Below, piece after piece: positions 41-63,884 of a DNA stretch of 64,000 bases. This stretch comes from a virus: positions 1 through 64,000 of the IMG/VR virus record IMGVR_UViG_3300033144_006256; one strand, 5' to 3'. The notes beneath the pieces were generated by a model. It searched no databases, was not told the origin of the DNA, and was given only the letters and a program-made list of their open reading frames with translations. How positions within the stretch are numbered: position 1 is the stretch's first letter; every line of letters starts with the position of its first letter. The position numbers and the translations under genes are program-made.

Positions 41-427
41 ATGATAACTGATTACACAAATAAAGGAACAGTAAAACCCCCCTTAGGATTATTGCCTCGT
101 TCCGACCATCCACATCGTAAAGGCTTAGTCGGTCAGTGGATAATGAACGAGGGATCTGGGCTGTTCCTAAATGATATGAGTGGGAATGGGAATGCTGGAA
201 CTGTTGTTGGTGCTGGTTGGGGTATTGGTGGAGTAGATTGTACTGGAGGGGGAATTGATTATAGTGCTTTACCTACTGCTTTATCATCCCCGTATTCATT
301 GGTTTTTACTTTTAAAGCACCAGGTACTGCATCTGGGCAATACATTTTTGATTGTGATAATGGACCTTTATTTATATACCCAGAAAGTAGCCTAATATAT
401 ATGGCACAGATACAATGGTATATATAG
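41..427 (+). CDS. N-terminal half of a LamG-like (concanavalin-type) fibre domain
   Basis: This encodes 128 aa. Residues about 25-60 (HRKGLVGQWIMNEGSG, then a DMSGNGN-like turn) look like the start of a LamG/concanavalin A-like lectin jelly roll, as in phage fibres and adhesins that bind surface sugars. The frame stops at 425-427. The rest of the same domain (MVYIDGILD, then NRALTHQEIQSLY) continues in the next frame from about 391, so the gene looks split by one base near 388-415. Either the domain is broken in nature or there is a sequencing error. The two ORFs together are best read as one gene, 41-3234. Confidence 0.6.
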   Translation: MITDYTNKGTVKPPLGLLPRSDHPHRKGLVGQWIMNEGSGLFLNDMSGNGNAGTVVGAGWGIGGVDCTGGGIDYSALPTALSSPYSLVFTFKAPGTASGQYIFDCDNGPLFIYPESSLIYMAQIQWYI

Positions 428-3234
428 ATGGTATATTAGATATTACATATTCTGCGTATGTGTTGCCTTCTATTTCATTAGCTTTCTATTTAGCATATAG
501 AGATGATGCTGCTCATAGTTTAGATGGTATATTTATTAACTCAGCATTCTACAACCGAGCCCTAACCCACCAAGAAATACAATCACTATACATAGAACCC
601 TACGCCGCTTGGGAGAAGCCGAGAAAGTATTTTTTTGTGGGAGAAGCAACTACTTCTACAAGCACAACTATTTCAACAACAAGCACTTCCAGCAGTTCAA
701 CGTCTATATCCACATCTTCAACATCAGTTTCTACAAGCAGTTCATCAACAAGTATTTCTACTTCATCTACTAGTATATCAACATCAAGTTCATCTACATC
801 CATTTCAACATCTTCTACTTCAACTTCTATTTCTACAAGTTCAACATCTATATCTACATCAAGTAGTAGCACATCAATTTCAACGTCAACATCTTCTTCA
901 TCTACATCAATATCTACATCCTCTTCATCTACAAGCAGCAGTTCCATTTCAACCAGTACTTCTAGTAGTAGCACATCAATTTCTACTAGTTCCACAAGTA
1001 TTTCTACATCAAGTTCTAGTATATCAACTTCTTCCAGTTCAACTTCTATCAGTACATCTTCCAGTAGCATTTCAACTTCAAGCAGTTCAACTTCATCAAG
1101 TAGTACTTCCACAAGTTCCAGTTCAACATCTGTTTCAACATCATCATCAATAAGTACAAGTTCTTCTACTACATCAGTTTCAACATCATCATCTTCTACT
1201 TCTACAACTACAATACTAGTAGGTAATATAATAAGTACAGATATTCTTACAGATAAATTTTATAAACATAGTGGGTTTTCATCAACTATTTTAGATAGTT
1301 TCGCATCACAAGATGCTGGACGTGGGGTTGCAATTGATAATGATTATTTTTATGGTGCTGTAAGTGGCATAAAAATAATTTATAAGTTTTCTGGCTTTTC
1401 TTCAACAATTTTAGATAGTTTCAATTGGATCACTGGGAACGGACCCAGAGGGATGACAGTTCTTGATAAAAATATATATATTACAAATGGGGTATCAGAC
1501 GTTTATAAGTTTTCTGGATTTTCATCAACAGTTTTAGATAGTATAACAGGGCTTACTTCATTCACAACTGGGGTTACTATTGATAGAGATTTTCTTTATA
1601 CAGAGAACACTAATAAAATCTATAAACACAGTGGATTTTCAGCTACAATATTAGATAGTTTTTCTTCAAGTAATTCTGTTAGTGATATAACAAAAAATAA
1701 CAATTATTTCTATAGTTCTGATCTTACTGCAGATAAAATTTACAAATATAGTGGGTTCTCTCCAACAATTTTAGATAGTTTTTCTACGCCAGCCACTTCG
1801 CCATCTGGTATCACACAAGACGACTATGATGCTCGTGTAGGGACAACTACATCTACAAGTTCAAGTTCAACATCTTCATCTAGTACAAGTATTTCCACGA
1901 CATCAATTTCCACAAGTTCAAGCTCAACAAGCAGCAGTTCAACTAGCATTTCTACTTCATCAACCAGTATATCAACATCCATATCAACAAGTTCAACTAG
2001 TATTTCAACAAGCAGTACATCGATTAGTATATCATCTTCCAGCACCAGTATTTCCACTTCAATTTCTACATCTTCTACAAGTATTTCTACTTCATCAACC
2101 AGTATTTCAACAAGCAGTTCTTCAATATCTACATCTTCTAGCAGTTCATCAACTTCGATTTCCACTAGTTCAACTTCAATTTCCACAAGTTCCAGTTCCA
2201 CTTCCATTTCTACCAGTAGTTCTTCAACTTCAATTTCTACATCTTCAACCAGCATTTCTACATCAAGTAGTAGCACATCAATTTCAACGAGCAGTAGTAG
2301 CACAAGTATTTCAACATCCAGTACTTCTATTTCTACTAGCAGCACGAGCATTTCAACATCAAGTAGTTCCACTTCAATTTCCACTTCTTCAACAAGTACT
2401 TCAACATCAACATCTAGTAGTTCAACTTCCATTTCAACTAGTAGTTCTTCTACTTCAATAACAGGAATAACAACATCTACATCTATTTCTACTTCTAGCA
2501 CCAGTATTTCAACAAGTAGCACATCTATATCCACTTCAACATCATCGTCATCCACAAGCGTTTCTACGAGTTCTACGAGCATTTCAACGAGCAGTAGTAG
2601 CATTTCAATCAGCACTTCCAGTAGTTCCATTTCTACTAGTATTTCTACCAGTTCAACTTCTATATCTACAAGTAGTTCTTCAACTAGCACTAGTATTTCT
2701 ACATCATCATCTTCAACATCCACAAGCACTTCTAGCAGTTCTACATCTATAAGTTTAAGCACTAGTAGTTCGTCAATTTCAACTTCAATCTCAACTAGCA
2801 GTAGTTCAATTTCTACATCAAGCAGTTCTACATCTATAAGCACAAGTTCAACATCACTTTCAACATCTAGTAGTTCAATTTCAACAAGTATTTCCACATC
2901 ATCAACTTCTGTTTCAACAAGTATTTCTACAAGTTCCACAAGTATCAGTACATCTTCTAGCAGCACCAGTATTTCCACATCTTCAACATCAATTTCAACT
3001 TCCACATCCATTTCTACAAGTTCAAGCAGTATTTCCACATCTAGTTCATCCACAAGTATTTCTACGACATCAGTTTCCACTTCCAGCAGTTCCACGTCAG
3101 TTTCATTTATAACAACAACATCAACATCAAGTTCTTCAACATCGCTTTCCACATCTTCAAGCAGTACTTCGCTAACTACAAGTATAACTGTTCAATTTTT
3201 AAGAAGAACATTTCTAGGAACGGAGCATAACTAA
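415..3234 (+). CDS. Fibre-like protein: LamG remainder, Ser/Thr tracts, five-bladed propeller
   Basis: This encodes 939 aa. Order: residues 1-75 complete the LamG fold begun at 41; about 80-265 is almost pure Ser/Thr (TSISTSSSS units); about 270-475 holds five repeats of about 41 aa with the core YKxSGFSxTILDSF followed by a GITxDNNYxY strand; about 475-920 is another Ser/Thr tract; the tail is LTTSIT-VQFLRR. Each repeat can supply four beta strands, so the block reads as a five-bladed propeller (inference). Such proteins are probable receptor-binding or virion-surface fibres. In-frame sequence upstream of the ATG (PNIYGTDT) shows that 415 is not the original start. Confidence 0.6.
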   Translation: MVYIDGILDITYSAYVLPSISLAFYLAYRDDAAHSLDGIFINSAFYNRALTHQEIQSLYIEPYAAWEKPRKYFFVGEATTSTSTTISTTSTSSSSTSISTSSTSVSTSSSSTSISTSSTSISTSSSSTSISTSSTSTSISTSSTSISTSSSSTSISTSTSSSSTSISTSSSSTSSSSISTSTSSSSTSISTSSTSISTSSSSISTSSSSTSISTSSSSISTSSSSTSSSSTSTSSSSTSVSTSSSISTSSSTTSVSTSSSSTSTTTILVGNIISTDILTDKFYKHSGFSSTILDSFASQDAGRGVAIDNDYFYGAVSGIKIIYKFSGFSSTILDSFNWITGNGPRGMTVLDKNIYITNGVSDVYKFSGFSSTVLDSITGLTSFTTGVTIDRDFLYTENTNKIYKHSGFSATILDSFSSSNSVSDITKNNNYFYSSDLTADKIYKYSGFSPTILDSFSTPATSPSGITQDDYDARVGTTTSTSSSSTSSSSTSISTTSISTSSSSTSSSSTSISTSSTSISTSISTSSTSISTSSTSISISSSSTSISTSISTSSTSISTSSTSISTSSSSISTSSSSSSTSISTSSTSISTSSSSTSISTSSSSTSISTSSTSISTSSSSTSISTSSSSTSISTSSTSISTSSTSISTSSSSTSISTSSTSTSTSTSSSSTSISTSSSSTSITGITTSTSISTSSTSISTSSTSISTSTSSSSTSVSTSSTSISTSSSSISISTSSSSISTSISTSSTSISTSSSSTSTSISTSSSSTSTSTSSSSTSISLSTSSSSISTSISTSSSSISTSSSSTSISTSSTSLSTSSSSISTSISTSSTSVSTSISTSSTSISTSSSSTSISTSSTSISTSTSISTSSSSISTSSSSTSISTTSVSTSSSSTSVSFITTTSTSSSSTSLSTSSSSTSLTTSITVQFLRRTFLGTEHN
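650..1215 (+). repeat. Ser/Thr-coding low-complexity repeat, tract 1
   Basis: Codons are almost only Ser, Thr and some Ile, with degenerate TCA/AGT/ACA units of 9-15 nt. Synonymous codons vary, so the protein pattern, not the DNA, is conserved. Acidic ORFs on the opposite strand are shadows. Confidence 0.85.
1840..3190 (+). repeat. Ser/Thr-coding low-complexity repeat, tract 2
   Basis: About 1.35 kb codes for STSISTSSSS-type sequence, the longest such tract in the window. It ends in the motif LTTSIT, shared with the two following genes. Confidence 0.85.
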
Positions 3235-3235
3235 T

Positions 3236-4846
3236 ATGGGTAATATACTTTCATCAGATCAAGATGCTAATAAAATTTATAAACATAGTGGGTTTTCATC
3301 TTCAATAATTGATAGTTTTTCAGTAATTGATGTCCGTGGGATAACAGCGGATAATGATTATATATATTCAGCGGATGATGCAAGTAATAAAATAATAAAA
3401 TATTCAGGTTTTTCAAATACAATTTTAGATAGCTTCACATCTCCAACTGCAATTCCTTGGGGAGTTACTGTTGATAATAATTATTTTTATAGTTCTAATT
3501 ATAATAGTCAAGATATTTATAAATTTTCTGGATTTTCTTCAACAATTTTAAATAGTATAAGTCTTACATTCGCTGCTGCAGATATAACAGTTGATAATAC
3601 TTATATATATGCAGCAGACCCTGCTAATGATAACGTATTTAAAAATTCATTATTTTCATCAAATATATTAGATAGCTTTTCTGCCCCAGCTGGGGCGACA
3701 ACTGGCTTAACAAAAGATAATAATTATTTTTATACATCTAACAGTGCTGATGACAAAATTTATAAACATAGTGGATTTTCAAGTACTGTATTAGATAGTT
3801 TTTCATCTCCAAGCAGTGACCCAACTGGATTAACTGTCGCTAACTATTCAGAAAGAGTGACTACAACAACTTCCACATCAACTTCCATTTCCACAAGTTC
3901 ATCATCCACAAGTATTTCTTCATCTACAAGTTCCAGCTCAACTTCTATTTCCACAAGTAGCACGAGTATTTCCACGTCAAGCAGTTCCACAAGTATTTCT
4001 ACATCTACAAGCAGTTCAAGTACTTCGGTTTCAACTTCTAGCAGTTCAACTTCCACAAGTTCCAGTAGTATTTCAACATCTATAAGTACTAGCAGTTCCA
4101 GCACATCAATTTCAACATCTTCAACATCGGTTAGCACATCATCAAGCAGTATTTCCACTAGTTCATCATCAACGAGTATCAGTACAAGCAGTTCCAGTAT
4201 TTCCACTTCCATTTCCACAAGTTCAACTTCGGTTTCCACATCTTCAAGTTCTACATCTATTTCTACTAGCAGTTCCAGTATGTCCACAAGCATTTCCACA
4301 TCATCAACTTCTATTTCAACAAGTTCAAGTTCGGTTTCTACAAGTATTTCAACGAGTAGCACCAGTATTTCCACATCTTCAAGCTCAATTTCAACGAGCA
4401 TATCAACTAGCAGTTCATCAACATCAATCTCAACTTCAAGCAGTAGCACTAGCATTTCATCTTCAACAAGTTCATCATCAATTTCTACAAGTATTTCCAC
4501 CAGTTCTACATCGCTTTCCACATCTTCCAGCTCAATAAGTACCAGTACTTCAACCTCCAGCAGTTCAACTTCCGTTTCCACATCTTCATCATCAATTTCT
4601 ACAAGTATTTCCACTAGCAGTTCTTCAACTTCGGTTTCTACATCGTCCAGTAGCACCAGTATTTCTTCAAGCACGAGCAGTTCGTCCACAAGCATTTCCA
4701 CTTCAAGTTCTTCAACATCGGTTTCAACATCGTCCAGTAGCACTTCAATTTCTAGCTCTACTTCGTCCAGTAGCACAAGTTTAACTACAAGTATAACAAT
4801 ACCATTTGTTAAAGGACGAACATCACTTATATCAGCATTTAGCTAA
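3236..4846 (+). CDS. Fibre-like protein: five-bladed propeller plus Ser/Thr tract
   Basis: This encodes 536 aa. It starts directly at the first strand of a propeller (MGNILSSDQDANKIYKHSGF). Five repeats with core YKHSGFSSTxLDSF cover residues 1-200, then comes a Ser/Thr-only tract of about 310 aa and the C-terminus LTTSIT-IPFVKGR. The ATG lies 1 nt after the previous stop. The start matches the VGNII that opens the other propellers, so it may be a module detached from a longer fibre. Role is inferred: virion-surface or host-binding protein. Confidence 0.6.
   Translation: MGNILSSDQDANKIYKHSGFSSSIIDSFSVIDVRGITADNDYIYSADDASNKIIKYSGFSNTILDSFTSPTAIPWGVTVDNNYFYSSNYNSQDIYKFSGFSSTILNSISLTFAAADITVDNTYIYAADPANDNVFKNSLFSSNILDSFSAPAGATTGLTKDNNYFYTSNSADDKIYKHSGFSSTVLDSFSSPSSDPTGLTVANYSERVTTTTSTSTSISTSSSSTSISSSTSSSSTSISTSSTSISTSSSSTSISTSTSSSSTSVSTSSSSTSTSSSSISTSISTSSSSTSISTSSTSVSTSSSSISTSSSSTSISTSSSSISTSISTSSTSVSTSSSSTSISTSSSSMSTSISTSSTSISTSSSSVSTSISTSSTSISTSSSSISTSISTSSSSTSISTSSSSTSISSSTSSSSISTSISTSSTSLSTSSSSISTSTSTSSSSTSVSTSSSSISTSISTSSSSTSVSTSSSSTSISSSTSSSSTSISTSSSSTSVSTSSSSTSISSSTSSSSTSLTTSITIPFVKGRTSLISAFS
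3860..4800 (+). repeat. Ser/Thr-coding low-complexity repeat, tract 3
   Basis: Same STSISTSSSS-type coding pattern as tracts 1 and 2. It ends at the shared LTTSIT motif. Confidence 0.85.
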
Positions 4847-4851
4847 AAAAT

Positions 4852-7800
4852 ATGATTAAAGATAAAAAGAAAATATTAGAATTAAAAAATAAACATTCTA
4901 AAAGAATGATGGAAAAACATTCTTTAACTGGTATTGGTATTGGCTATAAAACAACTAATGGAATAAAAACTGATAAACTTAGTATGGTTTTTCTTGTTGA
5001 AAAGAAACTTCCGAAAAATGAAATTCCAAAAGATAAATTATTGCCTCCTACATTAGAAGATGTTGAATGTGATGTTATAGAAACAGGCGAAATTAAAGCA
5101 TTGGCTTATACTGATAAAATACGTCCAGCAGAACCAGGCTATTCTATTGGACATCCAGATATAACAGCAGGGACATTAGGATGCGTTGTATATAAAGATA
5201 TTGGAAGATACATATTAAGTAATAATCACGTAATGGCTCACGAAAATGCAGCTGAAATTGGCGACCCTATATATCAACCAGGTGTATATGATGGCGGAGT
5301 GGCAGATGATACTGTCGCATATTTAGATAGTTTCGTAACGTTAGAAGATAATGCAACAGTTGATGGTGCATTAGCAATTATAACAAACAATGAATTAGTA
5401 ACAAATGTTGGGCAATGGGGTTCAGCTATAACAAGTTATTCTGACCCAGAAGTTGATGATACTGTTTATAAAACTGGAAGAACCACAGAAAATACAACAG
5501 GTACAGTATTATATGAGCATACAGATGTTAATATAAATTATACAGATTTGGGGGTATTACTTATAAAAGATTGTTTTATAACAGATTATATGGCAGATGG
5601 TGGGGATAGTGGTTCAGTAGGGCGATCAAGTGATACAAACGCAGTAGGGCTTTTATTCGCAGGGAGCAGTACACGAACAATATTTAACTATATGTCAAAT
5701 GTTGTTACTGAATTAGGATTTACTTTTACAGAACCATCCCCAAGATATTGGGTAGGGGGTGAAGATGATTGGGATAGTACAGCTGGGAGCAAATGGTCGC
5801 TAACTGATGGCGGAGCTGGCGGGGCTAGCGTTCCAACTTCTGATAATAATGTTTATATAAAATCAGGTGTTTGCACAATTACAGAAGCAGTATCAGCTGG
5901 AACACTAACACATACAGAAGGGACATTAGATACAAATGACCAAACATTAACAGTCACTGGTTCATTTATTACTTCTGGAGCAGAAAATAGAACATTAGAT
6001 TTTGGTTCAAGCACGATAAATTGTGGAAGTTTTACATATTCTGGCTCTGGTTTAACACTTATAGAGGGAACTTCAACAATAATAGTTGCTAATTCAGGAA
6101 ATTTTAATGGGAATGGTGAAACTTATTATGAAGTTCAACTTAATGATGAATTACATACAATAACAGGTGCAAATACTTTTACAACATTAACACGTACAGG
6201 AACAGCTACATTAGATAATAGATTAACATTATCAGCAAATCAAACTATAACTGGAACATTTACTTTAACAAGTAATTCTGTAACTAATCTTATTTTTGTA
6301 AGGTCAAATGAAAGCGGAACACAGCGAACAATAACCGCCGCCACTTTTACAATAAATTATGCTTCTTTTAAAGATATAGTTTGTGCTGGTGCTGGAACTC
6401 CCGCAGTCCCTACTTCCGCACAAAATTTAGGGAATAATAGCGGTATAACATTCCCAACTGCTATAAGATATTGGGTAGGCGGGGCTGGTAATTGGTCAGA
6501 TGGCACAAATCATTGGTCGCTAACTTCTAGCGGTTCAGCTGGGCATACTTCACCTGGTATAACAGATGATACTTATTTTGATAGTAACTCACATAACGAT
6601 GCTTATACAGTAACAGTAGATAAAACTTTTTATTCTAAAGATTTAACATTTGCACAGCCATCATCAGGTGCAGTTACATTCGCTGGGACTGAAACTTTAT
6701 ATATATATGGGGATTTAACATTAGTTGATGGAATGGTATATTCAAGCACTGGAAGTATTTATTTTAAAGCAACAGATGCTGGGCATACAATAACTTTGGC
6801 TGGCAATACTGCTGATAATCCTATTTATTTTGATGGTGTTAGCGGAGAATGGACATTGCAAGATGAATTTAATATTTCAGAAAATACTATAACACTTACT
6901 AATGGTTCTTTTGTTACTAATGACCAAACAGTTACTTGTGATGGTTTTGAGAGTAGTAATAGCAATACAAGAAGTTTAACATTAGGTTCAAGCGAAATAA
7001 CTTGTTCTGGTTTGATTGCTTGGGATATTAATACTATAACAAATTTAACTTTTGATGCTGGAACTTCAACTATTATTTTTACAAGTTATAGTATAATGTT
7101 TTATGGTGGTGGGCTAACATATTATGAAGTACAATTTACTTGTGCATATGCTAGAATTATTATTACTGGTGCAAACACTTTCACTAATTTGATAAAAACA
7201 AATACCGTAGAAGATTCAGGGGCTTCTTTTACAACTACTTTTCGTGGATATGAACGAATAGAGAAATCGTATATTGTAGAAGAATTTGATACATTGAGAT
7301 TATATGGAGACCAAACTATAACTGGTGTGCTTACATTAACTGGTTCTTCAACTGTCCCATTATTAGTTTATTCTAGTTCTAAGGGGACACAACGAACGAT
7401 AACAGCTGCTAATGTATCAGCATCTTATACCGATTTTCAAGATATTTTAGGTGCTGGTGCAGATGATTGGGATTTATCTAGTATAACTGGTGGTTCAGGT
7501 GATTGTGGTGGGAATACTGATATTACTTTTACAACACCAGCTACACAATATTGGTATAAAAATACTGGCGATTGGTCAGATAATACTAAATGGTTTTTAG
7601 CAACAAATGGAGGAGGTGGAGCAGGTAGAGTTCCATTACCACAAGATGATGTAGTTTTTGACGCTAATTCAATGGATACTGATAGCCAGGTTATAACAGT
7701 TGATAGGGGTAGAATTGGCAAAAATATAACTTTTGCGAATATAACTGATAACCCTATATTAGATATTACGTCTTGGGACAGATATGATACTTATTATTTT

Positions 7801-10800
7801 ATTTCAATTTTTGGTTCTTTAACAATGGGGACACTTACATTTGGAGAAACCACAATACATTATTATAGGATGACATTACTTTTTGAAGGTAGGGATAGTT
7901 ATACACTAACAAGTAATGGAGTATCATTTAATTGCCGTATTGGTTTGGATGCCCCTAGTGGAACATTAACATTACAAGATAATTTATTATCAACTGCAAG
8001 AGAAACAGTTGATAATAATACATTAGGCGGACTATTTATAGCGAATGGGACATTTAATGCTAATAATTATAATTTAAATATAGCTGGTATTTGGGTAGAC
8101 GTTGGGGCAGAGAGAACAATAAATATGGGAAGTGGAACTTGGATATTAGATGGGCATAGAGGTTCTTGGACAGCTAATCCATATGATTTAACAATAAATG
8201 CTGATACTTCTTTAATAAAATTAACAAATAATTCTAGTATAGATAAATATTTTTATGGAGATCACCATACTTATTATAATTTATGGAATGTAACAGAAGG
8301 AAGCGGAAAACTTATTTTTACAGATACAAATACTTTTAATGATATTAAAATAGATGCTGGTAGAGAAACACAATTTACGGGTGATACTACACAAACAGTA
8401 ACAACTTTTACAGCTAATGGTTCAGAAGGAAATTTAATCACACTTACAAGTTATGATGATATTGCCTATACACTTACAAAAGCTGGTGGTGGAACGATAG
8501 AATGTGATTATATAGATGTTAGTAAATGCACAGCAATGCCAGAAGATACTTGGTATGCTGGGGTAAATTCAGTAGATAGCGGGGATAATACTGGTTGGGA
8601 TTTTGCAACTACATCTACAAGTTCAACCTCTACAAGTTCATCAAGTACATCAGTTTCTACTTCATCATCTTCTACTTCTACAACTACAATACTAGTAGGT
8701 AATATAATAGGTTGTGATAGTAATAATGATAAATTTTATAAACATAACGGTTTTTCTGCTGGTATCTTAGATAGTTTTTCATCACCATCAACTGCCCCAA
8801 AAGGATTAACACACGATGGGTCTTATTTTTATAGTATAGATAGTGATTCAGATAAAGTTTATAAACATTCAGGTTTTTCAAACACAATATTAGATAGCTT
8901 TGCAACTGGGATAAATAATCCTGACGGGATAACTGTTGATGATAATTATTTTTATGTAAGTGATAATAATTTTGAAAATACAAAACATTATAAATTCTCA
9001 GGATTTTCTGCAACTATTTTAGATAGTTTTTCAACTGATGGGATAGAAGCAAAAGGGATTACAATTGATTTTTATTATTTTTACTATTCAGTGGCATATT
9101 CACCTTTAACTGGTATAAATTTATATAAAAGTTCTGCATTTGGTGGGACTGTACTTGATAGTTTTAATCACGGCAGTTATACAATAAATGGTATCACTGC
9201 AATAAATACAAATTTATGTATAACAGATAGTGGGAATAAGATTTATAAATTTTCTGGATTTTCTACTACAGTATTAGATAGTTTCGTAACAACTAATGAA
9301 CAATACTTAGCTTATGATGATTATGATGCAAGAATGGAAACAACAACTTCAACATCTACTAGTTCCACATCAATATCTACAACATCTATTTCCACGTCAT
9401 CTACAAGCACAACAGAAATAACAACATCTACATCAATTTCCACTTCATCTACAAGTATTTCAACAACCACTATTTTACAAGGGGATATAATTAGTAGTGA
9501 TTATAATACTGACAAAATTTATAAACATTCAGGATTTTCATCAACTATTTTAGATAGTTTTGCTTCTCCTTCAACATATCCACGTGAGATTACTATTGAT
9601 AATAATCATTTGTATAGTTTAGATGATGACACTAATAAAATTTATAAACATTCAGGATTTTCTCCAACTATTATAGATAGTATAAATATACCATCAAATA
9701 ACCCAAGAGGTATTACTGTCGATAATAAATATTTGTATAGTTCTAAATGGAATTCTCCTAAATTTTACAAACATAGTGGATTTTCAAGCACTATTTTAGA
9801 TAGTTTTGCATCGCCATCAACTCCTGTCCCAAGCGGGCTTACTATTGATAATAATTATTTATATAGTTCAGATAATAACACTGATAAATTCTATAAATAT
9901 TCTGGGTTTTCATCAACTATTTTAGATAGTTTTGCATCGCCATCAACTAGCCCACTTGGGTTAACTATTGATGATAATTATCTGTATAGTTCAGATAGTG
10001 CTTCAGATAAAATTTATAAACATTCAGGTTTCTCTTTAACAGTTTTAGATAGTTTTAATTCGCCTGATAGCAATCCAATCGGGCTTACCCAAGATAATTA
10101 TGATGCTCGGATAGAACCAACCACATCAACATCTACAAGTAGCAGTTCAACTTCTGTTTCAACTTCTTCTACCAGCATTTCAACATCCAGTAGCTCTGTT
10201 TCCATTTCAACTAGCACATCTAGCAGTTCAACATCAATTTCTACGAGTTCATCAAGCACATCAATTTCTACATCTTCCACATCGCTTTCAACTTCCAGTT
10301 CCAGTATTTCAACATCCATATCCACATCATCAACTTCGCTTTCTACATCAACTTCCAGTAGCAGTACTTCGCTTTCCACATCTTCATCATCTACAAGCAC
10401 AACAGAAATAACAACATCAACAAGTATTTCTACATCAAGCACATCCACTTCCAGCAGTTCCATTTCATTTTCTACATCTACATCTTCATCATCAATCTCA
10501 ACATCAATCAGTACTTCGTCCACAAGTATTTCAACATCTAGCAGTAGCACAAGCATTTCAACAAGTACATCATCTACAAGTATTTCTACTTCTTCCAGTA
10601 GCACAAGCGTTTCAACAAGTATTTCTACAAGTTCAAGTTCGGTTTCAACTTCAATTAGTATTTCAACATCTTCAACTTCGCTTTCATCTTCTACAAGCAG
10701 TAGTTCCACATCTATTTCAATAACATCCACATCATCATCATCAACAAGTTTAACTACAAGTATAACATTGTATTTCAGAGGGTACACTATATTAAATAGC

Positions 10801-10830
10801 GAACATAAATTACATACAACAATAAATTAA
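4852..10830 (+). CDS. Giant fibre protein with N-terminal trypsin-like protease, YWVGG repeats and two propellers
   Basis: This encodes 1992 aa, the largest gene here. Residues 1-295 are a chymotrypsin-fold serine protease: His126 in LSNNHVMAH, Asp171 in TVDGALAI and Ser253 in DGGDSGSVG form a complete triad. Residues about 297-1250 hold three YW(V/Y)xxxGxWSD modules followed by beta-rich, parallel-helix-like sequence (TLTxxGTLT..., GTQRTITAA), as in adhesins and phage tail fibres. Two five-bladed propeller blocks lie at about 1280-1496 and 1543-1755, each followed by Ser/Thr tracts. The C-terminus has LTTSIT like the two genes before it. The protease may mature the fibre or digest surface proteins (inference). 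There is no signal peptide, as expected for a virion protein. Confidence 0.7.
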   Translation: MIKDKKKILELKNKHSKRMMEKHSLTGIGIGYKTTNGIKTDKLSMVFLVEKKLPKNEIPKDKLLPPTLEDVECDVIETGEIKALAYTDKIRPAEPGYSIGHPDITAGTLGCVVYKDIGRYILSNNHVMAHENAAEIGDPIYQPGVYDGGVADDTVAYLDSFVTLEDNATVDGALAIITNNELVTNVGQWGSAITSYSDPEVDDTVYKTGRTTENTTGTVLYEHTDVNINYTDLGVLLIKDCFITDYMADGGDSGSVGRSSDTNAVGLLFAGSSTRTIFNYMSNVVTELGFTFTEPSPRYWVGGEDDWDSTAGSKWSLTDGGAGGASVPTSDNNVYIKSGVCTITEAVSAGTLTHTEGTLDTNDQTLTVTGSFITSGAENRTLDFGSSTINCGSFTYSGSGLTLIEGTSTIIVANSGNFNGNGETYYEVQLNDELHTITGANTFTTLTRTGTATLDNRLTLSANQTITGTFTLTSNSVTNLIFVRSNESGTQRTITAATFTINYASFKDIVCAGAGTPAVPTSAQNLGNNSGITFPTAIRYWVGGAGNWSDGTNHWSLTSSGSAGHTSPGITDDTYFDSNSHNDAYTVTVDKTFYSKDLTFAQPSSGAVTFAGTETLYIYGDLTLVDGMVYSSTGSIYFKATDAGHTITLAGNTADNPIYFDGVSGEWTLQDEFNISENTITLTNGSFVTNDQTVTCDGFESSNSNTRSLTLGSSEITCSGLIAWDINTITNLTFDAGTSTIIFTSYSIMFYGGGLTYYEVQFTCAYARIIITGANTFTNLIKTNTVEDSGASFTTTFRGYERIEKSYIVEEFDTLRLYGDQTITGVLTLTGSSTVPLLVYSSSKGTQRTITAANVSASYTDFQDILGAGADDWDLSSITGGSGDCGGNTDITFTTPATQYWYKNTGDWSDNTKWFLATNGGGGAGRVPLPQDDVVFDANSMDTDSQVITVDRGRIGKNITFANITDNPILDITSWDRYDTYYFISIFGSLTMGTLTFGETTIHYYRMTLLFEGRDSYTLTSNGVSFNCRIGLDAPSGTLTLQDNLLSTARETVDNNTLGGLFIANGTFNANNYNLNIAGIWVDVGAERTINMGSGTWILDGHRGSWTANPYDLTINADTSLIKLTNNSSIDKYFYGDHHTYYNLWNVTEGSGKLIFTDTNTFNDIKIDAGRETQFTGDTTQTVTTFTANGSEGNLITLTSYDDIAYTLTKAGGGTIECDYIDVSKCTAMPEDTWYAGVNSVDSGDNTGWDFATTSTSSTSTSSSSTSVSTSSSSTSTTTILVGNIIGCDSNNDKFYKHNGFSAGILDSFSSPSTAPKGLTHDGSYFYSIDSDSDKVYKHSGFSNTILDSFATGINNPDGITVDDNYFYVSDNNFENTKHYKFSGFSATILDSFSTDGIEAKGITIDFYYFYYSVAYSPLTGINLYKSSAFGGTVLDSFNHGSYTINGITAINTNLCITDSGNKIYKFSGFSTTVLDSFVTTNEQYLAYDDYDARMETTTSTSTSSTSISTTSISTSSTSTTEITTSTSISTSSTSISTTTILQGDIISSDYNTDKIYKHSGFSSTILDSFASPSTYPREITIDNNHLYSLDDDTNKIYKHSGFSPTIIDSINIPSNNPRGITVDNKYLYSSKWNSPKFYKHSGFSSTILDSFASPSTPVPSGLTIDNNYLYSSDNNTDKFYKYSGFSSTILDSFASPSTSPLGLTIDDNYLYSSDSASDKIYKHSGFSLTVLDSFNSPDSNPIGLTQDNYDARIEPTTSTSTSSSSTSVSTSSTSISTSSSSVSISTSTSSSSTSISTSSSSTSISTSSTSLSTSSSSISTSISTSSTSLSTSTSSSSTSLSTSSSSTSTTEITTSTSISTSSTSTSSSSISFSTSTSSSSISTSISTSSTSISTSSSSTSISTSTSSTSISTSSSSTSVSTSISTSSSSVSTSISISTSSTSLSSSTSSSSTSISITSTSSSSTSLTTSITLYFRGYTILNSEHKLHTTIN
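10115..10755 (+). repeat. Ser/Thr-coding low-complexity repeat, tract 4
   Basis: Same type as tracts 1-3, inside the C-terminal part of the giant fibre gene. Shorter tracts lie at about 8606-8690 and 9335-9475. Confidence 0.85.
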
Positions 10831-10902: not shown

Positions 10903-11874
10903 TTGAATACTTTATTTGCGATAACTGAAGACCATATTTTAACAGAACGGCTTGAATTATCAGCCGATGCAAGTTCTGGGCAAGCAGATGTAGCATTTAA
11001 AAATGTTACAACTGTTTTAGTAAATGATTATATAATATTAGGGACAATGGGTTCAGAAACTGCTGAAATATTACAAATAGATAGTATATCAGGATTAACA
11101 GTAACATTTAAAAGTAACCTTTTATATAACCATAAAGAATATGATATAGCCGTAAAAACACTTTTCAATAAAAGAAAATTCTGGCGTAAAAATACAGGGG
11201 AAAGCGTATATACACAATTAATTGATGAAGGTTCGCCAAAAACAATAGAAGTTGATAATCCAAATGGGACAATGTTAGAAGATTCTAATGGCGTTACTAC
11301 AAGCGTATATAAAGCAACATATTTTAATTCAACAACTAATGTAAATACAGCTGTTGATGATGCAATAGCACAATATGCAGGTGATTCAAGAAATTATGCA
11401 TCACTTTTTAAGATAAAAAGAGAAGCTGGAATGGCTAAAAACCCTTATATAGATGATGATTTAGTATATAATTATAGATTAGAAGCGGAAGGATTGATTA
11501 ACGGAATGTTAGCAGGTATTTATTCAGTTCCTTTTACATCAAATATACCAAAAATTATAACATATATAGCAACATTATTAAGTGCAGGTTACCTTTTACA
11601 AACAGAATATGGGGTAGAAGATGATATTGATATAAATAAAACAGGTACTTCAAAAATTGCTCGTGCTGAAAAATTACTTAATAAAATACTTAATGGCGAT
11701 TTACAATTATTAGATAGCAACAATGAGTTAATAGGCAAATCAAGCAACGCACAAGCATCATATAGTAATGATTATGATGATGATAAAGATGATAAAGGCG
11801 AACTATTTAATCTTGAAAATGAACAGTTTAAAGCGGCAAATCCAGATAATCCACTAAGTAGCACACGGAGGTAG
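10903..11874 (+). CDS. Head-tail connector, Gp36/DUF1320-like
   Basis: This encodes 323 aa with a TTG start (MNTLFAITED); no in-frame ATG fits better. The middle (LEAEGLINGMLAGIYSVPF, then IPKIITYIATLLSAGYLLQ) resembles the phage Gp36/DUF1320 head-completion family, in which a helical bundle docks on the portal ring. The N-terminal 110 aa is an extra beta-rich part and the C-terminal 60 aa is acidic and disordered-looking. It heads the operon of morphogenesis and tail genes, which is the usual place for such an adaptor. Family assignment is by pattern, not by search. Confidence 0.55.
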   Translation: MNTLFAITEDHILTERLELSADASSGQADVAFKNVTTVLVNDYIILGTMGSETAEILQIDSISGLTVTFKSNLLYNHKEYDIAVKTLFNKRKFWRKNTGESVYTQLIDEGSPKTIEVDNPNGTMLEDSNGVTTSVYKATYFNSTTNVNTAVDDAIAQYAGDSRNYASLFKIKREAGMAKNPYIDDDLVYNYRLEAEGLINGMLAGIYSVPFTSNIPKIITYIATLLSAGYLLQTEYGVEDDIDINKTGTSKIARAEKLLNKILNGDLQLLDSNNELIGKSSNAQASYSNDYDDDKDDKGELFNLENEQFKAANPDNPLSSTRR

Positions 11875-14111: not shown

Positions 14112-15260
14112 ATGGAAAAAGGAATAAAATATAGGTTATATCCTAATAATAAACAAAGAATATTATTAGAAAAACATTTTGGTGCTACAAGATGGTTATA
14201 TAATTATAGTTTGAATAAAAAAATAAAACTATATCAGAGAAGAAACAAGTCGATAAGTTGTTTTGATTTAATAAAAGAAATCCCTAAATTAAAAGATGAT
14301 AGAGAATGGTTAAAAGAAGTTAATTCGCAATCTTTACAGATGGAATTACGCCAACTAGATAATGCTTTCACAAGATTTTTTAGAGAGAAAAAAGGGTTTC
14401 CAAATTTTAAATCAAAGAAGAAAAAAAACTCGTTTAGTATACCACAAGGTAATAGAATAGAAGATAACAAAGTTTCTTTTATAAAGATTGGTAGTATTAA
14501 AGCTAAAATAGACAGAAAATTTGATGGGAGAATAATAAAAGCAACAATAAGTAAAAATAATATAAACCAATATTTTGTTTCATATATTATAGATACCAAT
14601 AATATATTAGAGCATACCAGAAATATCAATAAGAAAACAACTGTTGGGATTGATTTAGGGATAAAACACTTTGCTATTCTATCAAGTGGAGAAAAAATTG
14701 ATAATCCGAAATTTTTAAGAAAATCAGAGCAAAGATTAGCCATTCTTCAAAAAAGATTAAGCAAAAAGAAAAAAGGTAGTAACAATAGAATAAAAGCAAG
14801 ATATAAAGTAGCTAAAATACATAACAAAATATCAAATCAAAGGTCGTATTTCTTACATAATCTAACTTCAAAGCTAACCAACGATAACCAAGTTGATACA
14901 TACGCTATTGAAAATCTAAACATAAATGGAATGATAAAGAACCACTGTTTAGCAAAATCAATTAGTGATGTTAGTTGGGGCGAATTTGTAAGGCAATTAT
15001 CTTATAAATGCAAATGGTATGGCAAAAATCTATTAACAATCGGTAGATTTGAACCAAGTAGCAAAATGTGTAGTTGTGGGTATATAAATAAAGAATTAAA
15101 ACTTTCAGATAGAGAATGGGAATGCCCAGAATGTAAAGTAACCCACGATAGGGATATACTTGCATCGAATAACATTAAAAAATTTGCATTACAAAATCAA
15201 AACTTAATAAATAATTCACCGTTGTTGAAACGGGTAGAGCCTGTGGAGCTGTCGCATTAG
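14112..15260 (+). CDS. tnpB: RNA-guided endonuclease TnpB (IS200/IS605 OrfB type)
   Basis: This encodes 382 aa. The N-terminus (GIKYRLYPNNKQRILLEKHFGATRWLYNYSL) is the typical OrfB helix-turn-helix-like start. The RuvC residues are intact: Asp181 in VGIDLGIK, Glu267 in AIENLN, and Asp346/Asp348 in THDRDILASNNI. The zinc ribbon has CSCG (only one residue between the first two Cys) and CPEC. Family knowledge: TnpB cuts DNA next to a short TAM using a guide RNA from the element's right end. Catalysis looks possible, unlike nuclease-dead repressor relatives. No tnpA partner is nearby. Confidence 0.9.
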   Translation: MEKGIKYRLYPNNKQRILLEKHFGATRWLYNYSLNKKIKLYQRRNKSISCFDLIKEIPKLKDDREWLKEVNSQSLQMELRQLDNAFTRFFREKKGFPNFKSKKKKNSFSIPQGNRIEDNKVSFIKIGSIKAKIDRKFDGRIIKATISKNNINQYFVSYIIDTNNILEHTRNINKKTTVGIDLGIKHFAILSSGEKIDNPKFLRKSEQRLAILQKRLSKKKKGSNNRIKARYKVAKIHNKISNQRSYFLHNLTSKLTNDNQVDTYAIENLNINGMIKNHCLAKSISDVSWGEFVRQLSYKCKWYGKNLLTIGRFEPSSKMCSCGYINKELKLSDREWECPECKVTHDRDILASNNIKKFALQNQNLINNSPLLKRVEPVELSH

Positions 15261-17882: not shown

Positions 17883-17911
17883 TTGACAAAAAATAAAATA
17901 TTTTGTATAAT
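17883..17911 (+). promoter_or_regulatory. Promoter for tnpB 2 (leaderless transcript)
   Basis: TTGACA at 17883-17888 and TATAAT at 17906-17911 (17 nt spacer). The ATG at 17918 is 7 nt after the -10 box, as for tnpB 1. Confidence 0.7.
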
Positions 17912-17917
17912 ATAGAT

Positions 17918-19042
17918 ATGTGTAAGAGTTATAGAATAAAGTTATATCCTAACAATATACAAAAACAAGAATTATTAAAATATGCTGGTGCTTGTAGATT
18001 TGTATATAATTATTTTCTTGATAGAAAGAAAACTGAATATTTAAAAAATAGTAAAAATATCCCATATAATAAACTTTCAAAAGAATTAGTAGTTTTAAGA
18101 CACAATACAAGTTGGCTAAAAAATATACCGTTTGTCCCACTCCAACAATCATTAAGGAATTTAGATACTGCATATAATAAATTTTTTAGGAAACAAGCAA
18201 AATTCCCAAAGTTTAAAAGAAAATATAGTAGGCAATCAATAAGAAAAATTAATGGGTGGCATATAAAAAATAATAAGATAGTTTTTTCTAAAGAATTACA
18301 TTTGAAATTTAGGGGTAGAATTACAGAAAACCCAGTAGGCACTTTAACTATATCAAGGAATGCAATTGGAGAATGGTTCGCCTCTGTAATGGAAGATATA
18401 GAAGTTAAAAAAGTAAAGTTAAAAGGCAATATAGGAATTGATTTAGGTATTAAAGATTTGGCTATAACAAGCGATGGCGATAAATACAAGAATTGCAAAC
18501 CATTAAAATCAAATTTAAAACAATTAAGAAAGAAATCAAAAATACTTTCTAAAAAGAAAAAAGGAAGTAATAGAAGAAAGAAAGCAAGATTTGAATTAGC
18601 AATATTGCACAATAAAATTAGTAATATAAGGAATAATCATCTTCATCATACTTCAAAAGCGATTGTTAGCAAAAACCACGCGATAATTGCATTAGAAGAT
18701 TTGGCGGTTATAAATATGATGAAGAATAGAAAACTATCGCAAGCAATATCAGATGTAGGTTGGGCTGAATTAGTAAGGCAAATTACATATAAACAAAGTT
18801 GGATAGGTGGAAAAGTAATCAAAATTAACAGATTTTTCCCTTCATCGAAGACTTGCTCCAAGTGTGGATTTGTTTTAGATAGTTTGCCATTAAATATTAG
18901 AGAATGGCAATGCCCAAAATGCAAAGCAAAACACGACCGCGATGTTAATGCTGGTAAGAATATCTTATCGCAAGCATTAAAAACCGCTAAAAATATTTTA
19001 AAACAAGGGGTTGCGGAACTGCCCCGCGTGGAGAGCAGATAA
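17918..19042 (+). CDS. tnpB: RNA-guided endonuclease TnpB (IS200/IS605 OrfB type)
   Basis: This encodes 374 aa from the ATG at 17918; a TTG at 17903 would overlap the promoter and is less likely. It starts CKSYRIKLYPNNIQKQELLKYAGACRFVYNYFL. The RuvC triad is intact: Asp175 in IGIDLGIKDLAI, Glu260 in IALEDLAV, Asp340/Asp342 in KHDRDVNAGKNI. The zinc ribbon is the regular CSKCG and CPKC. It is clearly divergent from tnpB 1, so the two elements are relatives, not a recent duplication. Function by family: guide-RNA-directed double-strand cleavage that maintains or spreads the element. Confidence 0.9.
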   Translation: MCKSYRIKLYPNNIQKQELLKYAGACRFVYNYFLDRKKTEYLKNSKNIPYNKLSKELVVLRHNTSWLKNIPFVPLQQSLRNLDTAYNKFFRKQAKFPKFKRKYSRQSIRKINGWHIKNNKIVFSKELHLKFRGRITENPVGTLTISRNAIGEWFASVMEDIEVKKVKLKGNIGIDLGIKDLAITSDGDKYKNCKPLKSNLKQLRKKSKILSKKKKGSNRRKKARFELAILHNKISNIRNNHLHHTSKAIVSKNHAIIALEDLAVINMMKNRKLSQAISDVGWAELVRQITYKQSWIGGKVIKINRFFPSSKTCSKCGFVLDSLPLNIREWQCPKCKAKHDRDVNAGKNILSQALKTAKNILKQGVAELPRVESR

Positions 19043-19101: not shown

Positions 19102-20364
19102 GTGAGCATTCAATATAATTCAACTGAATTAGAAAACGCAACTTATAATGCAGAATTTGTTAAACACGAAAGCACACCGAATAGAGAATTAAATATAATC
19201 CCGCATATTAAACAAACAGGTGGTATATTAGTTAATGAAAGATTCCCATATAAAACAATACCATTAAGGGGATATATAGTAGGTTCATCACAATCAGATT
19301 TAGATAGTAAAATTGATACACTTAAAAATTTATTTAATACAAGCGAAAAAAATTTAGATGTTAGCTGGGCAGGCGGGACAAGAAGATATGTAGCAACGCC
19401 AAGAAATTTTATATGCGATAGAAACCATTATAATGTTTCATCAGTTAATTTTAGTGTTGATTTTGTTGTGCCAAGTGGTGTAGGTAAAGCTACAAGTTTA
19501 ACCCCAGTTATAAATGCTTTGTCAGTAACATCAACGCCATACACTAACACTACTATGAATTTAAGTAGTGGTTCATCAAGAATACGCCCTTTGATAACAA
19601 TAACAACAAACAGTGGGACGATACACGGATATAAAGTAACTAATACAATAACTGGCGATTATTTTATCTTAACAAGAGGTGGAACTGGGTTAATCTCTGG
19701 ACGAACTATAGATTGCGATGCAAAAACGATAAATGGTGTTTATGATAATTTTATAGGTGATTTTTTAGATTATTCCCCATTGGCGAATAGGCGATTGAGA
19801 ATAGATGTTGGAGAAATATTAGATGAACATTTTGATAGTTATGAGTATGGTGTTGCTATATATAATGATGGTGCTAATGACATTGAAAGAGCCGTAAGTT
19901 TTAAAACAAAACATTCTGATGATACATATAGAAAAATGGCTTGTTTTATTAAAAAAACAGGGACACCAGTTGGGAACTTAAATTGGAGAATAGAAACTGA
20001 TAATAATGGAGAGCCATCAGGGACTTTAATCCACGCACAAGCGTATGGAGCAATATCTGCTGGAGAGGTAACAACAAGTCTTGATTGGGTAGAAGATTAT
20101 ACAAATAGCACATTTACTGGGATAAAAGCTAACACTACATATTGGTTAAGATTTGCCGCATCTGCATCTGGGGGTGATAGTTCAAATTGTTTTGTGATTG
20201 GGTATGGTGCTGAATATAGTAAGGGGACTGGTGCTACGACAGATGACGGTGGGACAACTTGGACAATATCAACTAAAGCATATCCATTTAGATTATATAT
20301 AGGTGGAGCAACACCTGGATTTAATTTTACTCTTGATCTTGATTATTATCCAACATATTTATGA
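19102..20364 (+). CDS. Distal tail protein (Dit) with inserted carbohydrate-binding-like domain
   Basis: This encodes 420 aa. The N-terminal 150 aa (SIQYNSTELENATYN, PLRGYIVGSSQSDLDSKIDTLKNLF, then VSSVNFSVDFVVPSG) is the siphovirus Dit N-domain that forms the hexameric ring at the tail end. Residues about 235-405 (HFDSYEYGVAIYNDG, TYRKMACFIKKTG, NTTYWLRFAASASGG) look like an inserted jelly-roll module, known in evolved Dits that bind host sugars. The GTG start and RBS GAAAGGATAA come from TnpB element 2; the ancestral start was ATG at 17869. Confidence 0.75.
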   Translation: MSIQYNSTELENATYNAEFVKHESTPNRELNIIPHIKQTGGILVNERFPYKTIPLRGYIVGSSQSDLDSKIDTLKNLFNTSEKNLDVSWAGGTRRYVATPRNFICDRNHYNVSSVNFSVDFVVPSGVGKATSLTPVINALSVTSTPYTNTTMNLSSGSSRIRPLITITTNSGTIHGYKVTNTITGDYFILTRGGTGLISGRTIDCDAKTINGVYDNFIGDFLDYSPLANRRLRIDVGEILDEHFDSYEYGVAIYNDGANDIERAVSFKTKHSDDTYRKMACFIKKTGTPVGNLNWRIETDNNGEPSGTLIHAQAYGAISAGEVTTSLDWVEDYTNSTFTGIKANTTYWLRFAASASGGDSSNCFVIGYGAEYSKGTGATTDDGGTTWTISTKAYPFRLYIGGATPGFNFTLDLDYYPTYL

Positions 20365-48462: not shown

Positions 48463-48535
48463 GCAGATGTAGTTTAACTGTTAAAACTATCATTCCAACA
48501 AAATGATTTTAGCGGTACAACTCCGTTCATCTGCA
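48463..48535 (+). tRNA. tRNA-like gene, related to tRNA-Gly(UCC), abnormal anticodon arm
   Basis: 73 nt. Acceptor GCAGATG (48463-48469) / CATCTGC (48528-48534), perfect. D stem GTTT/AAAC. T arm AGCGG-TACAACT-CCGTT. The best anticodon stem TCATT/AATGA leaves the loop CCAACAA, so TCC, expected from the overall likeness to tRNA-Gly, is shifted out of position. It may be a degraded tRNA or an RNA with another job. Confidence 0.5.
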
Positions 48536-48568
48536 CAGGTTTTTTAACATTAAATAAAGGAGGGAATA

Positions 48569-60830: not shown

Positions 60831-60902
60831 AGCAGGGTAGAATAGCGGTAGCTCATTGGGCTTATATCCAAAAGGTCGTCGGTTCGAACCAGACCCCCGC
60901 CA
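60831..60902 (+). tRNA. Degenerate initiator-like tRNA with UAU anticodon
   Basis: The body follows initiator tRNA-fMet closely (GGTAGCTC, GGG before the loop, AGGTC-GTCGG-TTCGAAC). Acceptor GCAGGG/CCCCGC has one mismatch and position 1-72 is A-C, unpaired as in initiators. The anticodon loop is CTTATAT, so the anticodon is UAU instead of CAU. The anticodon stem and D stem each have one mismatch and CCA is not encoded (ACAA). Function is doubtful. Confidence 0.5.
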
Positions 60903-61536: not shown

Positions 61537-62217
61537 ATGAATGAGCAGATCACAATTTTATTTACTACATTTAACAGGTTAGAATATACAAAACAAAGTT
61601 TGCCTGTTTTAGTAAAAAATACAGAATACGAAAATATACGGCTCATTATTATTGATAACAATTCAACAGATGGAACTCAAGAATGGCTAGAAAAAAACAA
61701 GCCAGATAATTCTTGGGTTTTTTATAATAAAAAAAATAATGGCGTTATAGGTGCTATGAACCAATGTTTGCCCCTGTGTGGCGGGCTAATGGCAAAAGTG
61801 GATAATGATACACTTGTCCCTAAAAAATGGCTTACAACGCTATATACAAAGTTGCAAGAGCATTCATTGTTCGCTATCGGAGCGAAGCATAAGATAATGA
61901 ATTCTAATTATAAAACTTGGGATGATTGGATGGAAAATTTGAAAAAATTAGATAATGATTTATATTTAACAAATTATGTTGGCGGTTCAGGTGTATTATT
62001 CAGAACAGAAGGGATAAAAAATATACCAGCTCGTGGAAGATTTTTTGGCTGGGGTGATATTCAAGAACAAATGGTTAGAAGCGATAAAAAAATAGCTTTT
62101 CATAATGGGGTGTATGTTGATTTATTAGATATGGATGCAGACAACAAGTATAATACCGATTTCATTGATTATCGTTTAGAAGTAGGAAGGGTTAAAAATG
62201 TTAAACAATTGTTATAG
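61537..62217 (+). CDS. Family 2-type glycosyltransferase
   Basis: 226 aa. GT-A fold: ITILFTTFNRLEYTKQSLPV, LIIIDNNSTDGTQEWLE, then the DxD-like MAKVDNDTLVP and GGSGVLFRTEGI. It transfers a sugar from a nucleotide donor. Together with the two genes after it this is a phage glycosylation cassette; the Ser/Thr-rich fibres would be plausible targets (inference). Confidence 0.8.
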   Translation: MNEQITILFTTFNRLEYTKQSLPVLVKNTEYENIRLIIIDNNSTDGTQEWLEKNKPDNSWVFYNKKNNGVIGAMNQCLPLCGGLMAKVDNDTLVPKKWLTTLYTKLQEHSLFAIGAKHKIMNSNYKTWDDWMENLKKLDNDLYLTNYVGGSGVLFRTEGIKNIPARGRFFGWGDIQEQMVRSDKKIAFHNGVYVDLLDMDADNKYNTDFIDYRLEVGRVKNVKQLL

Positions 62218-63187
62218 GATACTTTATTGTGGTGTGTTTAATCCGAAACTTATTTATCAAGCATCCCCGATTTCTAATGATGATGTTATAGCCCGTGGAT
62301 TAGAAAAAAATAATTGCAGGGTAGTTAAATTTGATTTTAGGCAAGAAACAAAAGAATTTGGTGTTGAAAATATGCGACAGGCATTATATGAAAGAGCAAT
62401 TAGTTATCAACCAGATATTATATGGTTCGCTAAAACAGATGAAATCGGTATTGAAACTTTACTTAATATTAAAAGTGCTTTGCCTAATACTAAGATTGTT
62501 AATTGGGCAGATGATATTCGTCCAGAGCCAGTAAAAGAACTTATAGAGTTTAATAAACATACAGATTTACTTTTAGCTGATTTTGGCGGTGAATGGTTGA
62601 AAAAACATAAAGAACTTGGTGTGAATAGAATAGCAAATTTTTTTACATTAGTTGATACTGAAAATTATGTGCATATTGATATACCAGAAACAGAATGGCA
62701 AGAAGATATTATATTTACAGGTAAAGACGCTCCATTTTCAGAAGATATAAGAAAGGTAGTAAAAAGTTCATTAGAAGATTATGGGGCTAAGATATATGAT
62801 GAAAATAATTGGATTGGTTATCCAGAATATAAACAAGCTATAAATGGTGCTTATATAGGTATAGGTTGCAATTCGCTTAATCACGCAGAACTTTACACAT
62901 CAGATCGTCTTGCTCATTTTATGGGATGCGGAACATTTTATATGACATATAAAATTAAAGGATTAGAAAAGATTTTTAATAGCAATGAAATAATACAATT
63001 TGATAGTATAAAAGATATGTATGAAAAAATAGAATACTATTTAATAAATGATAAAGAGCGGAAAGAAATAGCTTATAACGGTTATAAGAAGATAAGAAAA
63101 TTACTTGATTACCGCAGAGTAGTAAATGATTGGTTAAATATATTATTTAATAATAAAAGTGAATATGATTGGGTAACAATATTATGA
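62198..63187 (+). CDS. Glycosyltransferase, CgeB-like (GT-B fold)
   Basis: 329 aa, overlapping the previous gene by 20 nt. ILYCGVFNPKLIYQASPISN, ALPNTKIVNWADDIRPEPVK, NRIANFFTLVDTENY, then YIGIGCNSLNHAELYTSDRL and FMGCGTFYMTYKIKGLEKIF fit CgeB/GT4-like glycosyltransferases with a C-terminal donor-binding half. Substrate unknown. Confidence 0.7.
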   Translation: MLNNCYRILYCGVFNPKLIYQASPISNDDVIARGLEKNNCRVVKFDFRQETKEFGVENMRQALYERAISYQPDIIWFAKTDEIGIETLLNIKSALPNTKIVNWADDIRPEPVKELIEFNKHTDLLLADFGGEWLKKHKELGVNRIANFFTLVDTENYVHIDIPETEWQEDIIFTGKDAPFSEDIRKVVKSSLEDYGAKIYDENNWIGYPEYKQAINGAYIGIGCNSLNHAELYTSDRLAHFMGCGTFYMTYKIKGLEKIFNSNEIIQFDSIKDMYEKIEYYLINDKERKEIAYNGYKKIRKLLDYRRVVNDWLNILFNNKSEYDWVTIL

Positions 63188-63342
63188 AATTCAAAAACCA
63201 TAAAGATAAATTAAAACTTGCCAGAAAAATGATAACAAGAAACGAAATTAAAAATCACACGCCATTATTCCAAAGTAAAGCGTGGAAATTAAAAAAAATA
63301 TCAATAAATAATCGTATTAAAAAGAAATGTTTGGAAAAGTAA
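63184..63342 (+). CDS. Small basic protein
   Basis: 52 aa, MKFKNHKDKLKLARKMITRN, then KAWKLKKISINNRIKKKC. It overlaps the genes on both sides by 4 and 16 nt. Not recognised. Confidence 0.45.
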   Translation: MKFKNHKDKLKLARKMITRNEIKNHTPLFQSKAWKLKKISINNRIKKKCLEK

Positions 63343-63884
63343 TGGAAGAAATTAAAAAAGATATTCATAACCAGCCAGATAGTGAATGGCATACAAAAGG
63401 GATAAAAGAAAGTTGCGAACATTTATTATTTGTAAGTAAAATATTCCCATTTAAAAGTGTGTTAGATTTAGGATGTGGGAGTGGCATTGCTTGCAAGATA
63501 TTAAAAGAAGCAGGGAAACAATGTATAGGGATTAGTCTATCAGATGAAGAAGCACACAAAGGGGTAGAGATATTAAAGCAAGATATACACAATTTAGATA
63601 TACCAGATAATAGTTATGATTTAATTTTTGCAAGGCATATTTTAGAACACAGCCCTATCCCATTACATATACTTTTTGAATGTAAAAGAATAGCAAAATT
63701 AAGTTATATAGTTATACCAGATTGTAATTGGATGAGCTTATCACACACTAACCATTATTCTGTTTTAACACCTGAAATGTGGGAAAAACTTTTTGAAAGG
63801 GTTGGATTAAAAATAATTGAAAAGATGCTTGGAAAATGGCACGCACACCCAAAAGGTGTAGAATATAGGTATTTATTAAAATGA
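63327..63884 (+). CDS. Class I SAM-dependent methyltransferase (Methyltransf_11-like)
   Basis: 185 aa. SVLDLGCGSGIACKILKEAG is motif I; LDIPDNSYDLIFARHILEHS is the post-I/motif II region; SYIVIPDCNWMSLSHTNHYS, VLTPEMWEKLFERVGL follow. The family acts on small molecules or sugars; among glycosyltransferases it may methylate a surface glycan. Confidence 0.75.
   Translation: MFGKVMEEIKKDIHNQPDSEWHTKGIKESCEHLLFVSKIFPFKSVLDLGCGSGIACKILKEAGKQCIGISLSDEEAHKGVEILKQDIHNLDIPDNSYDLIFARHILEHSPIPLHILFECKRIAKLSYIVIPDCNWMSLSHTNHYSVLTPEMWEKLFERVGLKIIEKMLGKWHAHPKGVEYRYLLK

Follow-up and report, generated by a model that had tools for sequence, protein, structure and literature searches.

What is built from three neighbouring virus genes that encode long serine/threonine tracts between blocks of a regular repeat, and what is the purpose of the large set of sugar genes in the same record? 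The three genes occupy positions 415-10830 of the window, i.e. bases 1-64000 of virus record IMGVR_UViG_3300033144_006256 (84,644 bases), and their repeat blocks are predicted to be β-propellers. We found that a glycosyltransferase (GT) gene and a second gene, SM, which encodes a small protein, accompany such propellers in divergent viruses. The reading that we favour, with moderate confidence, is that propeller fibres of the virion are glycosylated by the phage's own gene cassette, and that Ser-rich linkers are an optional, possibly mucin-like addition to them.

Propeller blocks and their linkers

The window holds 20 repeats of the YKxSGFSxTILDSF type, which form four blocks of exactly five, as the original prediction had stated: five repeats each in the open reading frames (ORFs) 415-3234 and 3236-4846, and 10 in ORF 4852-10830. 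The blocks are 207-214 residues long (identity to the reference block is 47-57% for the other three), and each of them is bordered by Ser/Thr tracts, of which the longest has the 450 a.a. claimed for it. For block 4, with the three remaining blocks in the alignment, AlphaFold produced a model of 212 residues and 20 strands (pLDDT 88.1, pTM 0.86). Its Foldseek matches, in PDB as well as in viral predictions, are propellers (NHL, YWTD, YVTN and WD40), which supports the propeller originally proposed. We predict that each block is a five-bladed β-propeller with four strands per blade; the announced 'twenty propeller repeats' would then be the blades of four propellers, not twenty propellers. The register of the repeats reads as an N-terminal strand closing the ring, and five blades per block are also the rule among relatives. 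The blocks match no Pfam family, a profile search of PDB gave weak matches at best (E = 0.0072), and there was no sequence match to the PDB propellers of phages.

The propeller is most likely an adhesion module. A five-bladed propeller is also found in a known phage adhesion protein, the receptor-binding protein gp45 of Staphylococcus phage phi11, which has five four-stranded blades and an N-terminal strand that closes the ring (PMC4901313). However, gp45 is a trimeric baseplate protein with a single propeller per chain, whereas the genes in the window hold up to two propellers each, and a 3,670-residue frame in a relative (L010) holds 50 blades, with Ser/Thr tracts of up to ∼418 a.a. The window fibres further differ from gp45 in their regular repeats, Ser-rich linkers and adjoining sugar genes.

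The linkers are not made of Ser and Thr only, as had been thought: these two residues account for 82-92% of the linker stretches (75% in one exception, a 20-a.a. stretch in the third gene), and regularly placed Ile, Val and Leu make up nearly all of the remainder. These hydrophobic residues are mostly 4, 7, 9 or 11 residues apart, in units such as STSSTS-I and STSSSSTS-I; proline is absent. A degenerate codon pattern written for this linker grammar has 25 matches in the window versus none in 100 shuffles, so the pattern is not due to chance. We sampled 1,691 pairs of linker peptides with the same 12 residues: in none of the pairs do all 12 codons agree, and codon identity barely exceeds the expectation for independent codon choice (0.343 versus 0.307; 0.328 versus 0.310 for the L010 linkers). 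Identical linker peptides are thus encoded without shared DNA, and the pattern is therefore maintained at the protein level. The codon diversity rules out DNA-repeat expansion as an account of the present-day linkers.

Genes upstream of the propeller and the glycan cassette

Single-sequence searches with one propeller block found no relatives in 50,697 phage records, in line with the claim that such proteins are rare in described phages, and none in viral contigs; several dozen propeller loci, mostly divergent, were recovered once block alignments were used to scan the viral contigs. These relatives are uncultured viral contigs picked by their similarity to the query, so they are not independent samples. 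In most of them the order SM-GT-propeller recurs, with SM and GT directly upstream of the propeller gene. We counted 29 distinct propeller loci, each with at least 1.5 kb upstream: in 21 the GT gene is at most 500 bp away from the propeller gene, and in 18 of those the two genes range from a 23-nt overlap to a 3-nt gap. At three loci (L011, L012 and L076) a GT or SM gene is in the neighbourhood of the propeller without abutting it.

A reverse scan that started from the GT gave 80 loci, in which a propeller is found at 10 out of 10 loci with SM versus one out of 70 without SM (and this one locus is cut off upstream). Because the two scans share several contigs, they do not count as independent tests, and a Fisher value of 6.7e-12 makes the association look stronger than it is. 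SM is near-exclusive to propeller loci; searches of PHROGs and PDB gave no function for it. A polysaccharide-deacetylase-like gene is additionally present at six loci, and other sugar genes near the core vary (aminotransferase, hexapeptide acyltransferase, epimerase, sulfotransferase and cytidylyltransferase).

The composition of the linkers also differs by relative. It is Ser/Thr/Ile in the window, Ser/Thr in L010, Ser/Cys/Phe/Tyr in L011 and L017, and Ser/Leu in L072; L014 and L015 have Ser/Thr tracts, and L012, L013, L016, L018 and most other relatives have no Ser-rich linker. The linkers around the propellers of L011 and L017 (IMGVR_UViG_3300022677_000027) are very rich in Ser and Cys (SSSSCSSSCSSS...), and nearby genes there encode largely Ser and Cys. 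In L013 (9992-11815) the propeller is followed by about twenty repeats of the TKTFTADAxLxx type. The GT gene tracks the propeller even where linkers are absent, which could not be seen from the letters of the window alone. A pairing of the GT with the linker was considered and dropped, since linker-free propellers also have GT and SM.

The GT is predicted to have a GT-A fold and to be A197-like or phrog_1574-like. Its model (pLDDT 93.3, pTM 0.89) matches A197 of Sulfolobus turreted icosahedral virus (STIV) best in PDB, then Mnn9, and then collagen glycosyltransferases, mimivirus R699 and polypeptide GalNAc-transferases, a similarity of fold from which the acceptor is not readable. A197 also comes first in profile searches (E = 1e-6), and phrog_1574 matches with E = 1.2e-11. 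The first Asp of the DxD motif is invariant and the second is common (DDD in the window copy). A197 is likewise a small, stand-alone viral GT-A enzyme; it is essential, and its proposed glycosylation target is the major capsid protein (PMC10551542). However, it belongs to an archaeal virus, its acceptor is a proposal there too, and the review passage on it describes no propeller or SM partner.

As in a virion glycosylation system, sugar enzymes are encoded here alongside a structural gene. In mycobacteriophages, as reported in passages citing the work, phage-encoded GTs are thought to glycosylate virion proteins (Freeman et al. 2023, cited in PMC12619734 and PMC11256854); the targets named there are capsid and tail tube C-termini, whereas the candidate targets here are fibre propellers and Ser-rich linkers, and the conserved three-gene order is a further difference. 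Our literature search returned nothing on phage Ser/Thr glycoprotein fibres or on NHL/GT pairs.

The glycan cassette of the record begins after a Mu gpT-like major capsid gene (59722-60663). It encodes ∼14 glycosyltransferases, including GT2 and GT4-like ones (a count that includes members known only from weak or homology-based matches), three sulfotransferases, five methyltransferases, a GT75/RGP-like protein, a UDP-GlcNAc 2-epimerase and a GDP-mannose-dehydratase-like enzyme, together with further genes without assignment. The RGP (reversibly glycosylated polypeptide) family protein is at 4009-5025 of L008 (record 67008-68024; E = 3.5e-38); this family is known mainly from plants. A crude Kyte-Doolittle scan found no membrane-helix-like stretch in the proteins listed between position 61,537 and the end of the contig, so sugar assembly is probably cytosolic; the GT of one relative, L071, has one hydrophobic stretch in the membrane scan. 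The contig ends within a LamG-like gene (record 84302-84644, in L009) that is a near copy of the gene at 41-427 of the window: the copies have ∼115 bp in common (window ∼288-402), and the frame of the window copy breaks just beyond. Because of this shared segment, the two ends of the contig are likely to join within a repeat, and the cassette would then lead into the fibre genes across the join. The LamG-like frame, broken near 403, resumes in ORF 415-3234, and the break is possibly an assembly artefact.

What the sugar enzymes may act on

The description of the window proteins as fibres is supported indirectly: in-frame fusions in L014 and L016 join a propeller to a homolog of window ORF 20361-21557; this ORF comes after the Dit-like gene in the tail cluster and is tail-tip-like by position. 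In the window itself the fibre genes sit between the glycan cassette and a Mu gp36-like gene (10903-11874), and the tail cluster comes after these; placements in the head, neck or tail therefore all fit the gene order. We infer a virion location in this phage.

If so, ORFs 415-10830 would encode surface fibres of a tailed phage, in which long and presumably disordered Ser-rich linkers connect the propellers. The large cassette would build and modify sugars in the cytosol, the GT would initiate or lengthen O-linked glycans on the propeller fibre as virions assemble, and SM may act as its specific partner. Since GT and SM are also found with linker-free propellers, the primary acceptor may be the blade itself (e.g. 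its conserved SGFSxT loop); linkers would be an optional enlargement. In linker-bearing phages, the Ser/Thr linkers could supply many more acceptor sites and so give a mucin-like coat, maybe sulfated or methylated. The word mucin holds as an analogy, with no homology claimed: as in mucins, long repetitive Ser/Thr tracts lie between folded domains, and a large glycan cassette adjoins the fibres. However, mucins have tandem regions rich in Pro, Thr and Ser, whereas these linkers are Ser/Thr-rich and proline-free with regular Ile/Val/Leu, and their glycans are conjectural.

Phage virion glycosylation is thinly documented, with targets established in few cases, and a GT gene that usually overlaps or abuts one structural gene across many divergent phages offers a defined enzyme-substrate pair for testing. 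If glycosylation of the fibres is confirmed, bacterial viruses would be shown to be capable of making linker-rich fibres that are heavily glycosylated by sugar pathways of their own, perhaps for reach, for sticking to surfaces or for shielding, and a role would be suggested for some of the many unassigned GTs in phage genomes. A broader claim is tentative, and we consider it somewhat more doubtful than true: that there is a widespread modular glycoprotein-fibre system, in which a three-gene core (SM, a protein-directed GT and a five-bladed propeller) is combined with sugar cassettes and Ser-rich linkers to give phage-encoded, mucin-like virion strings.

Several observations weigh against glycosylation of the fibres. 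Neither GT nor SM was detected at five of the 29 loci (L014, L015, L020, L054 and L062, of which L015 is a fragment), and L014 has a linker and a propeller with no GT within 9 kb upstream. The second Asp of the DxD motif is lost in L018, L050 and L069. In the record, the GT does not adjoin the first propeller: two small genes, the LamG genes and the contig end intervene. The presence of GT and SM beside propellers without Ser-rich linkers means that the linker need not be the acceptor. Finally, the glycan on the fibres is itself inferred.

The same genes could serve another end. GT, SM and sometimes the deacetylase may, at a late stage of infection, modify the host-surface glycan to which the propeller binds; progeny would then be freed from debris or related phages excluded, and the propeller itself would stay unglycosylated. 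We regard this as unlikely, although it remains a serious rival: sugar enzymes closely paired with a binding protein would be expected from it as well, it suits the deacetylase-like gene at six loci, and it has a precedent in prophages whose glycosylation of the O-antigen blocks phage adsorption (PMC11990801). On the other hand, the cassette of the window has no membrane GT, flippase or polymerase-like protein, an overlap with a structural gene suits modification of the virion, and the nearest GT folds include several protein-acting enzymes.

Low-complexity spacers are common in many proteins, and the linkers could be plain, sugar-free flexible spacers that give reach between binding propellers, with the cassette serving another purpose or another virion protein. 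The differences in linker residues among relatives would fit this, as would the fact that most GT-associated propellers have no such linker. Yet Ser occurs in every one of these linker types, as the only residue that they have in common, and scrambling of the codons has left the Ser-rich grammar intact. Linker-bearing records also tend towards more GT2 matches (7, 6, 1 and 5 per record versus 0-4 in the others, p = 0.011, from few records and confounded by contig extent). We consider plain spacers improbable, a little more so than late editing of the receptor.

It is very unlikely that the GT-propeller link is mere hitch-hiking in a region where cargo genes are swapped, with no functional pair: gene order, strand and overlapping frames are conserved among very divergent phages, in which GT identity to the window copy falls as low as 23%, and there is a nearly one-to-one correspondence between SM and the propeller, even if related SM-less GTs are also near structural genes in many other phages and the sets are contigs sampled by similarity. 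Least probable of all is modification of phage DNA bases, since, despite the existence of phage GTs that hypermodify DNA (cited in PMC12619734), the record has no thymidylate-synthase-like gene and the GT is located among structural genes, beside the propeller gene (a Tet_JBP search, whose control gave no match, is uninformative here).

Features of the locus

Coordinates of the fibre genes and of the cassette. Positions are those of the record, which coincide with the window up to 64000
Feature	Position	Strand	Remarks
LamG-like (concanavalin-type) ORF, N-terminal part	41..427	+	by eye; no Pfam match
Fibre gene A	415..3234	+	rest of LamG-like domain, Ser/Thr tract, propeller 1, 450-a.a. Ser/Thr tract
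Ser/Thr linker, 191 a.a.	649..1221	+	gene A; 88% Ser/Thr
Propeller block 1, five blades (predicted)	1222..1842	+	gene A; fold predicted for block 4 on alignment of all four
Ser/Thr linker, 450 a.a.	1843..3192	+	gene A; residues 477-926 of first ORF; longest
Fibre gene B	3236..4846	+	propeller 2 and 315-a.a. Ser/Thr tract
Propeller block 2, five blades (predicted)	3239..3859	+	gene B
Ser/Thr linker, 315 a.a.	3857..4801	+	gene B
Fibre gene C, 1,992 a.a.	4852..10830	+	NAL1-like serine protease domain, repetitive β-rich region, propellers 3 and 4, Ser/Thr tracts
Serine protease domain, residues 3-291	4858..5724	+	phrog_20754, E = 1.5e-58; NAL1_N below cut-off
Ser/Thr linker, 30 a.a.	8608..8697	+	gene C
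Propeller block 3, five blades (predicted)	8698..9339	+	gene C
Ser/Thr linker, 46 a.a.	9340..9477	+	gene C
Propeller block 4, five blades (predicted)	9481..10116	+	gene C; block modelled
Ser/Thr linker, 217 a.a.	10120..10770	+	gene C
Glycan cassette, ∼22 kb	61,537-83,541		single strand; beyond the window in L008 and L009
First cassette gene, GT2	61537..62217	+
Glycosyltransferase of cassette	62198..63187	+	PF13524
SAM methyltransferase of cassette	63327..63884	+
SM gene	82494-82910		cassette end
Propeller-associated GT gene	82888-83541		cassette end

A single-sequence search of viral contigs with the protease found no relatives; among phage records the best match of the protease region (4852-5751) is an archaeal virus of Aeropyrum, with 38% identity over 42% of the query. 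Amidase_3 and M23 genes point to a bacterial host; terminase matches are weak and of mixed hosts. Two of the propeller loci, L050 and L051, are on metagenome-assembled genome (MAG) contigs labelled Candidatus Bipolaricaulota and Methanosarcinales, which may be proviruses or misbinned virus contigs.

Two OrfB/TnpB-like (IS605-type) genes are inserted among the tail genes, at 14112-15260 (the one for which Pfam was run) and at 17903-19042 (likened to the former by eye). The window also has a tRNA-Val gene (48463-48536) and a tRNA-Ile(TAT) gene (60831-60903).
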